Of a stretch of 35,106 bases of DNA, positions 8,573-11,567 are shown in pieces. This DNA comes from Marine Group I thaumarchaeote (GTDB lineage Archaea; Thermoproteota; Nitrososphaeria; Nitrososphaerales; Nitrosopumilaceae): contig JACAST010000003.1 in assembly GCA_013390765.1 (NCBI GenBank), forward strand, positions 1 through 35,106, read 5' to 3'. A model generated the notes under the pieces. That model saw nothing but the letters and a program-made list of their open reading frames with translations, was not told the DNA's origin and ran no database searches. The translations under genes were made by a program, and so were the position numbers. Numbering within the stretch: position 1 is the stretch's first letter; each line of letters starts with the position of its first letter.

Positions 8573-10240
8573 TTACGTTGTTGCTTGTGATGCTTCATGG
8601 AACATCTGGCTCTTTGCACAGCCTGCTGCAAGATCGTCTCCTGCACCTCTTCTCATAAGACCTCTGTAAAGACCATCTTCAAGTTTTTCACCCTCTCTTT
8701 CTTCCCATTCCTCAACGGTAATGGAATATTTCTTTTGGATTCTATCTCTATACCACTCCGGAATTACATTAAATGCACAGAATGGTATGATTCTAAGGTC
8801 AGGTGTCACATAATGAATGTCACACCTTTGTAATCTTTCAAGATCTTCATTGTATTTGTCCTGAAAGTGCATCATGCCCAAGAACATTCCTTTGACATGG
8901 AAGGCTCCCATTGAATCAAAGGATCTTTTCATTAGTATGGTTGAAAACATTTTTGCCAAATCCAGACCCGCTGGTTGCTTGTCTTTGTCAATGAAGCCTT
9001 TCAGTTTTCTTACTACTTCTAACATTGTAAAGTACTTGTTAGCACCAGAGCGAATTTGTTCTGATTTATCCTCAAATAATTCCAGCATTCCTTGAAGGTC
9101 ACAGAATCGTGTCATAGGAACAAATTTCTTTGTATCTGCATCTTCAAAAATATATGTGCCTGCGCCACAAGCAAAATGAATTGACAGCTCATACTTTGGT
9201 TTACTTGAAAATGCCTCAATCACATTTGTAAGTGGCATACAGCTTGGTACAGGATACCAGTCATCAACTGTTACCTGACCTTGTGTCTGCTCCTCTATTC
9301 TCTGGATACAATCAGGGATAGTAATTCTGTACTTTTCTCTTTCAGTTTTTCCCATTCTTCCAGTTAGTGATACGGGTTGGAAGTTTACTGCGTGTACAAC
9401 ATCCATATTCTTTTGTGCATATCTAATAATGCCACCAAGTTCATGATCGTTAATTGATTTAATTACAGTAGGGACAAAGACTACAGTAGTTCCTATTTTT
9501 CTACAAGTATCCAGTGCATATGGAATTTCCCAGTGGTTTTTTGGATTGGTTCTTGCTGTTACACCATCAAAACTAAGATAAAGATTGTTACATCCTGCCA
9601 TTCTTACATCTCTACCAGCTTCTGGGTCAAGTGCATGACGTATTCCATTGGTATTCATTTGTATATGGTCAACGTGCTCTTCTTTCATTATTTTGATTAA
9701 ATCTGTGATGTCTTCTCTTAACATTGGCTCACCGCCAGTAATCTGCATAGAGTTTCCGGGGATTGGTCTTTCTGCCCTAAGTGTTTTCATCATAGCGCGT
9801 ACTTGATCTTGAGTTGGCTCATACATGTAAGCGCCCTCAAGACCCTTCTTTACATAAAAGAAACAATACCAGCATGTAAGATCACATCTGTTTGTTACTA
9901 TGATATTTGCCAGACCGCTATGAGAAAGGTGGTTGGTACAAAGCCCACAGTTATTTGGACACGAACATTTGTCTTGCATCATAACGTTTGGTGCGTGGGC
10001 TCCCTTTCCATCTACCCAATAAGTACTAAATTTCTTGTACATATCATAGGAACCGAAATACAGTTCCTCACATTCTCCGTGTGTTGGACAAACCTTTGAC
10101 ATGAAGACTTGATCATCTCTTTCAAATACCTCAGCATCTAGAATCATATTACAATCAGGGCAAATGCTTTGAGTAAAACGGATAGTAGCCTTTTTGCTTA
10201 ATGATTTAGTTGATTGATTGGAAATCTGAATTAATGCCAT
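8573..10240 (-). CDS. tes: Radical SAM protein, tetraether lipid synthase (Tes)-like
   Basis: A 555-aa radical SAM enzyme of the MJ0619/Tes type, which joins two archaeol-lipid tails C-C to form GDGT membrane-spanning lipids. The N-terminus has a rubredoxin-like set of Cys (C27PDC30, C51, C57), then C92xCxxxCxxC101. The radical SAM core follows with CDLTCWYC (C119, C123, C126) and ITGGEP at 167-172. Further Cys occur late in the protein (HFACGAG, TRFCDL, QRCDIH, PFCAF), fitting extra Fe-S clusters. This cysteine layout and length match Tes as I know the family; other MJ0619-like radical SAM enzymes are the main alternative. It is divergent from a TrmB regulator, with a TATA-like GTTAAATATC about 28 bases before the ATG. 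Confidence 0.72.
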   Translation of the reverse strand: MALIQISNQSTKSLSKKATIRFTQSICPDCNMILDAEVFERDDQVFMSKVCPTHGECEELYFGSYDMYKKFSTYWVDGKGAHAPNVMMQDKCSCPNNCGLCTNHLSHSGLANIIVTNRCDLTCWYCFFYVKKGLEGAYMYEPTQDQVRAMMKTLRAERPIPGNSMQITGGEPMLREDITDLIKIMKEEHVDHIQMNTNGIRHALDPEAGRDVRMAGCNNLYLSFDGVTARTNPKNHWEIPYALDTCRKIGTTVVFVPTVIKSINDHELGGIIRYAQKNMDVVHAVNFQPVSLTGRMGKTEREKYRITIPDCIQRIEEQTQGQVTVDDWYPVPSCMPLTNVIEAFSSKPKYELSIHFACGAGTYIFEDADTKKFVPMTRFCDLQGMLELFEDKSEQIRSGANKYFTMLEVVRKLKGFIDKDKQPAGLDLAKMFSTILMKRSFDSMGAFHVKGMFLGMMHFQDKYNEDLERLQRCDIHYVTPDLRIIPFCAFNVIPEWYRDRIQKKYSITVEEWEEREGEKLEDGLYRGLMRRGAGDDLAAGCAKSQMFHEASQATT

Positions 10241-10263
10241 TGTTACTGATTTTTTTTAAGATT

Positions 10264-10273
10264 GATATTTAAC
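10264..10273 (-). promoter_or_regulatory. TATA-like box of the tes-like gene
   Basis: On the minus strand this reads GTTAAATATC, centred about 28 bases before the ATG at 10240, the spacing expected for a leaderless or near-leaderless archaeal transcript. Confidence 0.45.
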
Positions 10274-10285
10274 GGCTTTCATACT

Positions 10286-10310
10286 TTACACCGTTGGAAT
10301 AGGAGTGTAA
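10286..10310. promoter_or_regulatory. Inverted repeat between divergent promoters, candidate operator
   Basis: TTACAC (10286-10291) and GTGTAA (10305-10310) form perfect 6-bp arms around 13 bases. The element sits between the TATA-like boxes of the tes-like gene and of trmB, about 10 bases upstream of the latter. It could bind the TrmB-family or the DtxR-family protein encoded just downstream. No binding evidence is possible from sequence alone. Confidence 0.35.
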
Positions 10311-10319
10311 TTTATAGTG

Positions 10320-10327
10320 TATATAAT
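10320..10327 (+). promoter_or_regulatory. TATA box of the TrmB-family gene
   Basis: TATATAAT centred about 22-25 bases before the two adjacent candidate ATG codons (10345 and 10348), consistent with an almost leaderless mRNA. Confidence 0.55.
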
Positions 10328-10344
10328 AACAAATCAAAGCGAGA

Positions 10345-11118
10345 ATGATGAGTATTTCCGATCAAACACGAAAATCTTTGGAAAAAGTTGGTCTAACGGG
10401 CTATGAAATCAAGACTTTTACCTCACTGCTAAAAACTGGTGAGCTTACTGCTTCAAATTTAAGTCAACAATCTGGTGTTCCATATTCAAAGATTTACGAA
10501 GTTTTGAGTGCACTAGAGGAAAAAGGTTGGGTTGGTTCCGATAAATCAAGACCGACAAAATATTTTTCTAAATCTCCTAATTCTGCACTACAAACAACAA
10601 AACAAAGGATCGAGGAAGATTTTGCAAAAAATGAGAAAATAATCCTAAGCGATCTTAACCCAATATACAAAAAAAGTGGTACAACAGAACGACCTGATAT
10701 CTGGGTTCTAACAGGAACTATGAATATAGCAACCAGGATTCTTGAGATGATTGAAACGTGTAGAAAAGAAGTGTTAATTGCAATTCCAAAAGCTGGAGAA
10801 GAATTGATAAAACAGGCATTACCAAAACTAAGACAGTTACATGACAAGGGAGTTAAAATTACAATTCTCACATCTGACAGATTTGATAAAGATGCCCTCA
10901 AAGGATTAACTCGACTTGCTACCGTAAAAATGAAGAAAGGACTCTTTGGCGGTGGTTTAATTTCAGATAAACATAATGTTGTAATATTGCTTGGCCCAGA
11001 AATTAGTCATTCAAATGCTTCAGAAATTATAGCAATATGTACAGATCATGCTGAGCTATCTGGTTTTGCAAGAGAATATTTTGAATATTTATTAAAAGAT
11101 ACATCGAAGGTTAAGTGA
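10345..11118 (+). CDS. TrmB-family transcriptional regulator
   Basis: A 257-aa TrmB-type DNA-binding regulator. The N-terminal winged helix (residues about 1-80) reads LEKVGLTGYEIKTFTSLLKTGELTASNLS...GVPYSKIYEVLSALEEKGWV, the classic TrmB HTH with the recognition helix at PYSKIYEVLSALE. The rest (IWVLTGTMNIATRILEMI, VLIAIPKAGEELI, KITILTSDRF) resembles the PLD-like regulatory domain found in shorter TrmB proteins; I see no extended sugar-binding domain. It is divergent from the tes-like gene, with a candidate operator between them, and its stop overlaps the next start (TGATG), so it is cotranslated with the DtxR-type gene. The ligand is unknown. ATG 10345 or 10348 are both possible starts. 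Confidence 0.83.
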   Translation: MMSISDQTRKSLEKVGLTGYEIKTFTSLLKTGELTASNLSQQSGVPYSKIYEVLSALEEKGWVGSDKSRPTKYFSKSPNSALQTTKQRIEEDFAKNEKIILSDLNPIYKKSGTTERPDIWVLTGTMNIATRILEMIETCRKEVLIAIPKAGEELIKQALPKLRQLHDKGVKITILTSDRFDKDALKGLTRLATVKMKKGLFGGGLISDKHNVVILLGPEISHSNASEIIAICTDHAELSGFAREYFEYLLKDTSKVK

Positions 11119-11567
11119 TGGGTTCGTCTGATGATGAAGTTCTTTTTGTGGGAACCGCTGATGCTGAACATGTTGAGATGTATCTGAAGGCAATTTGGCA
11201 TATAAAAGAAAGAAACGAACCCGTAAAAATCAGCACAATTGCGAGGATGCTCAGCGTAAGACAGCCAAGCGTTGTTCAAATGTTAAAAAAACTAAATCTA
11301 CAACAACTTGTGGAATATAATAAAGCTGGAGTTTTTCTTACTGAAAATGGTGAAAAAGTCGGTTCAACTATGATGAGAAATAGTAGGCTAATGGAAGTTT
11401 TGATGGATAGTACACTTAAGGTAGAGATTGATGAGGAGATGGTATGTGGAATTGAACATCATATGAGCAAACAATTTACAAATGCCATGTGCACTATGCT
11501 AAACCATCCACGAAAATGTCCGCACAATCACAAAATTCCTGAAGGAGAATGTTGCCAAAAAAACTAA
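11118..11567 (+). CDS. DtxR/MntR-family metal-dependent regulator
   Basis: A 149-aa regulator of the DtxR family, which represses metal uptake or other genes when bound to Fe(II) or Mn(II). The winged helix spans residues about 17-80 (VEMYLKAIWHI, ISTIARMLSVRQPSVVQMLKKL, GVFLTENGEKVG). By alignment to DtxR, the primary metal ligands are all kept: M21 (as M10), C110, E113 and H114 (as C102, E105, H106 in CxxEHxM). The ancillary-site histidines are not (S89 and E106 in their places). The Cys ligand favours an iron-type regulator over MntR. The tail has extra CPH, H and CC residues and no SH3 domain. ATG 11118 overlaps the trmB stop; GTG 11115 is the alternative. Confidence 0.85.
   Translation: MGSSDDEVLFVGTADAEHVEMYLKAIWHIKERNEPVKISTIARMLSVRQPSVVQMLKKLNLQQLVEYNKAGVFLTENGEKVGSTMMRNSRLMEVLMDSTLKVEIDEEMVCGIEHHMSKQFTNAMCTMLNHPRKCPHNHKIPEGECCQKN

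Follow-up and report, generated by a model that had tools for sequence, protein, structure and literature searches.

We analysed a stretch of 35,106 nucleotides from a Marine Group I thaumarchaeote (GenBank assembly GCA_013390765.1, contig JACAST010000003.1, positions 1 to 35,106; hereafter the window), in which the gene for the tetraether lipid synthase Tes is divergent from an operon encoding a TrmB-family regulator and a DtxR-family protein. Comparison of this locus with its relatives showed that a conserved element lies upstream of tes, and that this element tends to appear and vanish with TrmB and does not track DtxR. On these comparisons, it is probable that transcription of tes is controlled by the divergent TrmB ortholog, acting as a dedicated local regulator and most likely as an activator. 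The features of the locus are as follows.

8573..10240, minus strand: tes, tetraether lipid synthase of the radical S-adenosylmethionine (SAM) type, 555 amino acids (aa) (NF045702, PDB 7tol)
10266..10272, minus strand: tes TATA box, TATTTAA on the plus strand (sequence reading; conserved column block beside the element)
10278..10303, strand unassigned: conserved tes-upstream element, predicted TrmB operator (expectation-maximisation (EM) motif, score 14.9, co-occurrence with TrmB)
10320..10329, plus strand: TATA-like sequence of trmB-dtxR, TATATAATAA, about 20 bp ahead of the start codon (sequence reading)
10345..11118, plus strand: TrmB-family regulator, 257 aa, with a phospholipase D (PLD)-like C-terminal domain (PF01978, partial match to PF11495)
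11118..11567, plus strand: DtxR-family protein, 149 aa (PF01325, PF02742)

The element upstream of tes

A motif search by EM was made on regions upstream of tes, of which 70 out of 148 were retained under 72% identity. The 26-bp motif obtained reached a log-likelihood of 421, compared with 77 to 84 for four shuffled sets, for which both starts and iterations were fewer. Fifty of the 58 confident motif rows were located 9 to 13 bp from the start of the TATA match, while seven had no TATA match and one was located at 21 bp; the element adjoins the upstream side of the B recognition element (BRE)/TATA box of tes. In the same 58 rows, the motif information was near zero on the trmB side past column 31, and the consensus read by eye at the best dyad centre, from tes to trmB, was ACY-N4-CA-N5-TGAAT-RGT. 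The half-sites read by eye in the window are ACT (10283-10285) with AGT (10304-10306) and TTACAC (10286-10291) with GTGTAA (10305-10310), and the window element scores 14.9 while the 99.99% quantile of the background is 6.3.

The element was also scored in hold-out tests, in which a whole family was left out of training and a sequence passed when it scored above the 95% shuffled score. All sequences passed in f2 (4/4), f7 (2/2) and f5, f6, f8, f10, f14 and f16 (1/1 each), as did 3/4 in f4 and 2/4 in f13. The TrmB-bearing G055 alone passed among the eight sequences of f15, the single sequence of f9, where no TrmB was found, did not pass (0/1), and that of f12 passed (1/1) at an unlike place. 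Among 30 Tes loci scanned outside the class Nitrososphaeria, a high-scoring site (14.7) was found in L294 (G213, family f29) alone. TrmB is divergent from Tes in G257, a relative of the same family, and none was found in the available flank of G213 and G307.

Association of the element and of tes with TrmB

Co-occurrence was counted in 116 genomes, with one tes upstream region for each and with TrmB orthologs defined by an E-value below 1e-50. The element scored above the threshold of 7 in 96 of the 100 genomes that have a TrmB ortholog, compared with 2 of the 16 that have none, counts that ignore shared ancestry. Both element-positive genomes without an ortholog (G008 and G027) carry a more distant TrmB beside tes, in divergent orientation. 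One genome, G192, was entered by hand as element-free: its highest scores over 1.6 kb were 7.2, at a place some 0.8 kb upstream of tes, and 6.2, close to the start, and both places are off promoter distance.

The gene order was examined by looking for Tes, TrmB and DtxR in 200 genomes of the class. All linkage counts are among the matches listed, about 150 places for each protein, and take in the window genome, whose Tes interval is approximate; the family and genome labels of these counts, of the co-occurrence count and of the hold-out tests were entered by hand. Tes and TrmB were at most 2 kb apart in 121 of the 125 genomes with both genes, in divergent orientation in 115 and in tandem in six, the latter belonging to families f13 and f15; the remaining genomes showed one divergent pair at 2.4 kb and three unlinked pairs (G103, G082 and G197). 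In the named loci, which are the best 80 of 373 confirmed stretches and all from close relatives, Tes was divergent from TrmB in 76/76 loci having Tes in reach, and DtxR followed TrmB in 80/80 loci, at less than 300 bp in 79. When 52 loci, flanked by about 1.5 kb in most cases, were scanned with a TrmB profile, eight matches were obtained (L013 and L137 being one place), distributed in f4, f8, f13 (two), f14, f16 and, from outside the class, one genome of f29; those in f14, f16 and f29 are also cases of TrmB beside Tes. Several near-complete relatives appeared to lack Tes, TrmB and DtxR together, a pattern that was considered as co-loss and dropped as evidence, because one checked genome reads N over a long stretch.

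DtxR as a proposed regulator of tes

An initial annotation of the window had proposed that an iron- or redox-sensing circuit acts on tes through the spacer, a reading in which DtxR would be the key regulator. DtxR is indeed located less than 300 bp after trmB in 99 of the 100 placed f1 genomes and in the one of f5 (1/1), and Tes is presumably an Fe-S enzyme, with what we take to be several Fe-S clusters and a rubredoxin-like iron in the family. However, adjacency was found in only 1/6 placed genomes of f2 and 7/25 of f3; the other f3 genomes have DtxR at less than 2.5 kb (1), on the same contig but far away (4) or on another contig (13, contig breaks perhaps accounting for part of them), and seven families beyond f1 and f3 have TrmB and no DtxR among the matches listed. 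The gene order proposed for the window was thus found to be conserved for Tes and TrmB, and only in part of the group for DtxR. Judged from these counts, TrmB is the more constant partner of tes and DtxR is an optional companion.

The distribution of the element also argues against a central role of DtxR. The element was present in 14 of the 17 genomes with a TrmB ortholog and no DtxR among the matches listed, and in 11/13 once the four with weaker DtxR-family matches (G166, G171, G020 and G029; 9.5e-41 to 4.6e-14) were dropped, while it was present in 0/3 f1 genomes with DtxR and no TrmB found (G159, G177 and G181; L112, L148 and L149), which are drafts of 89-91% completeness in which TrmB could be missed.

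The window DtxR matched PF01325 (53.4-54.8 bits) and PF02742 (69.8 bits), both above cut-off, and the Pfam scan gave no further C-terminal domain match. Residues M21, C110, E113 and H114, which the initial annotation had correctly listed and which we take to be the Met/Cys/Glu/His primary metal site of DtxR/IdeR, were invariant in 74/74 unique orthologs. As ancillary ligands of DtxR/IdeR we assume His79, Glu83 and His98. The column aligned to the His of SloR/ScaR, which presumably corresponds to His79, contains a serine in 68/74 and a threonine in 6/74 orthologs and never a histidine (Ser89 in the window), Glu93 is kept in 74/74, and the loop at the presumed position of His98 is two residues shorter than that of SloR. 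Judged from this alignment, only the primary metal site is complete, because no histidine occupies the His79 position and the His98 loop is shortened, two features that the initial annotation did not mention. Three additional cysteines (C125, C145 and C146) were invariant (74/74), and C134 (67), H130 (71) and H136 (71) were mostly kept; these could possibly form an additional metal or redox site. A structure model of DtxR was set aside, its predicted local distance difference test score (pLDDT) being 69.6 and low at the C-terminus.

The window genome also contains a second DtxR-family gene (L001, G000:C73:8335-8505), whose match to PF01325 (71 bits) is above that of the window DtxR and which is a candidate general metal regulator. 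Since DtxR is adjacent in only part of the group, the element does not follow DtxR in its distribution and the ancillary ligands are missing, an iron/redox circuit for tes is not supported, and we consider DtxR improbable as the key regulator. Control of tes from this locus, the other half of the initial proposal, is well supported by the comparisons, with TrmB as the predicted regulator and the conserved element located in 10241-10344.

Autoregulation and core promoter readings

The element sits between both promoters and autoregulation is common among such regulators, so that the element could serve trmB alone, tes being uninvolved and still its neighbour only because rearrangement is slow. 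When TrmB is unlinked, however, tes still carries the element (14.2 in G103, 11.9 in G082 and 12.4 in G197), whereas the 300 bp upstream of the unlinked or tandem trmB contain no site in G082, G197, G026 and G043, with 3.2 as the best score, and a weak site (6.1) in G103. When TrmB is elsewhere, tes retains the element, which is not clearly true of trmB, and TrmB is close to tes in the tandem orientation of f13 and f15 too; autoregulation alone is therefore very unlikely.

A search of the f1 genomes was made with a pattern derived from the f1 spacers themselves, at three mismatches or fewer and with the reversed pattern as a control. The site was found at the tes/trmB spacer in 18/18 f1 genomes, with one extra site elsewhere and one match of the reversed control. 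That the element is an extended BRE-like core promoter feature with no dedicated regulator would agree with its location beside the BRE and its almost constant spacing from the TATA box, but is hardly credible given this single off-spacer site across 18 genomes and the lack of the element at the promoter of tes in G159, G177, G181 and G192, four genomes in which TrmB was not found.

The extra f1-type site (L199 3568-3590; G088:C3:100067-100089) is located in a 198-bp copy of the spacer with 74% identity, ahead of a 76-aa open reading frame (ORF), and the surrounding ORFs appear mobile-element-like by eye. A pattern made for f3 matched in 4/12 genomes, at the tes site in G072 and G082 alone and elsewhere in G070 and G093; it also matched once in the reversed control, and no f3 regulon is claimed. 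A scan of viral contigs with a 16-base core was dismissed, its five matches being under a rough chance estimate of about 28.

The Tes and TrmB proteins

The initial description of a Tes-like enzyme divergent from a TrmB-DtxR operon was confirmed by matches to NF045702, PF01978 and PF01325/PF02742 and by the overlap of the two regulator genes, the ATG of dtxR at 11118 sharing one base with the stop codon of trmB (TGATG). The radical SAM protein of the window scored 686 bits against NCBIfam NF045702 (tetraether lipid synthase Tes; cut-off 450) and matched the solved Tes structures 7tol/7tom with an E-value of 7e-123; by these matches, it is Tes. Ten cysteine columns (C27, C30, C51, C94, C98, C101, C119, C123, C126 and C358) were invariant in 92/92 Tes sequences, including the radical SAM motif CxxxCxxC, which corresponds to C119/C123/C126.

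In family f6, the sole Tes of G151 above cut-off is of a Methanocaldococcus-like type, with 554 bits to 7tol compared with 414 for the window Tes, to which it is 37% identical. Despite this different enzyme, both TrmB and the element are in place in G151 (L140 2776-5135; element score 15.5), an apparent in-place enzyme replacement judging from the sequences. G192 (L321), of the same family and with a Tes 88% identical to that of G151 but cut by the contig end, shows neither TrmB nor the element. G089 (L099) contains a second tes gene about 8 kb from the first; the sequences upstream of the two are nearly identical (element score 6.5, under the threshold), and one of the genes alone adjoins trmB.

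The window TrmB scored 75.9 bits against the PF01978 winged helix (cut-off 25.6), 31 bits against the PF11495 effector domain (cut-off 22.2), over profile positions 2-117 of 233 alone, and 82 bits against the TrmB equivalog, far under its cut-off of 600. A complete PF11495 domain with the sugar residues G320/E326, as given in the accessible part of PMC4158304, was not found in the window protein, which ends at 257 aa; by this match, the classical sugar-binding domain is without its second half. The HxK-x4-D motif was not found in 98/99 unique TrmB sequences. A structure model, which served for a coarse fold match alone, had TrmBL2 as its best structural match, followed by TrmB and PLD-superfamily domains. 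The true start of TrmB is probably 10348, because 91/99 unique relatives have no residue at the first methionine of the window protein. This protein shares 96% identity with a Marine Group I record and 86% with that of a Nitrosopelagicus metagenome-assembled genome, which places the window in a marine ammonia-oxidizing lineage; the assembly containing the window is 884 kb long and 63% complete. The spacer between tes and trmB (10241-10344) is 104 bp long, and the tes TATA box being only about 26 bp ahead of the tes start codon suggests that the tes transcript is leaderless. Many f1 spacers contain a GATC-containing repeat ahead of trmB that is not present in the window.

Proposed regulation of tes by TrmB

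Several observations weigh against regulation of tes by TrmB through this element. The dyad covariation beyond the consensus was weak, the observed value being reached in 94/2000 permutations, and an alternative dyad centre was close behind the best one (0.404 compared with 0.432). The threshold was picked after the background was known, and the scoring matrix was trained on part of the sequences scored in the co-occurrence count, in which four genomes with a TrmB ortholog (G089, G163, G026 and G029) were below threshold. In the hold-out tests, only 8/28 sequences of f1 passed, and 4/12 of f3, three of these out of register, while G021, which has a distant TrmB only, passed at a place unlike the others. 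The best match was in the register of the full model in 21/28 f1 sequences (22/28 within one base) and in 8/12 f3 sequences, and two of six f1 register misses were without TrmB. We read these sites as one family whose half-sites drifted between families, such drift being itself unfavourable, and the TrmB model was weak (pLDDT 66.2).

With these points counted, TrmB remains the probable regulator. A TrmB dimer would bind the inverted-repeat-like element abutting the upstream side of the tes BRE/TATA box, and this binding would help TBP/TFB to bind, resulting in activation of tes. We infer activation as the simplest reading of the element position and as the most likely outcome, because the element is upstream of BRE/TATA and, according to the available parts of PMC4706686 and PMC4158304, TrmBL1/Tgr activates from sites upstream of BRE/TATA and represses from sites downstream. 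In vitro, two of three templates with an upstream site were activated and one was not (PMC4706686, accessible part), which also counts against activation.

Comparison with TrmBL1/Tgr of the Thermococcales showed a shared winged-helix TrmB domain and, with the dyad-like element as the predicted counterpart, a palindromic site placed relative to BRE/TATA. However, TrmBL1/Tgr regulate sugar metabolism broadly and have a full sugar-binding domain and the site TATCAC-N5-GTGATA (Thermococcales glycolytic motif, TGM), whereas the window TrmB is shorter, has another predicted site and apparently serves one gene. TrmBL2 of Pyrococcus, the best match of the weak model and of similar length, is a chromatin protein according to PDB titles, while the f1 site has almost no further copies in its genome. 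The window DtxR shares with DtxR/IdeR/SloR the helix-turn-helix and dimerisation domains and the primary-site ligand set of DtxR, but differs in having no further C-terminal domain match, no His79 equivalent and the extra invariant cysteines.

The ligand of the PLD-like C-terminal domain, in which a full HKD motif is missing, would be something other than a sugar, perhaps a lipid precursor, and a metal input may come from DtxR in that part of the group where it belongs to the trmB operon. An ancient tes switch, in which TrmB would sense a lipid precursor through this domain and set the Tes level and the monolayer/bilayer balance, with DtxR as a second, metal input in many ammonia oxidizers, is a speculative and rather unlikely extension of regulation by TrmB.

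Searches of the open-licence literature gave no report of a regulator of Tes, most subscription papers and preprints being outside this coverage. In the available part of PMC10465181, tes of S. islandicus was upregulated in cold early-stationary cells, and in that of PMC12542715, carbon limitation of N. viennensis led to more GrsA, the main text as available containing neither "TrmB" nor "DtxR".

The conserved trio of predicted regulator, operator and target described here, with its apparent natural losses and one apparent in-place enzyme replacement, provides a specific candidate regulator for the bilayer-to-monolayer step in archaea that count among the most abundant on Earth. Tetraether lipids are a hallmark of archaeal membranes and underlie the TEX86 temperature proxy, and Tes is the enzyme that joins lipids into these membrane-spanning molecules. 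If the switch outlined above exists, cells could adjust their monolayer versus bilayer content through a Tes level set by TrmB.

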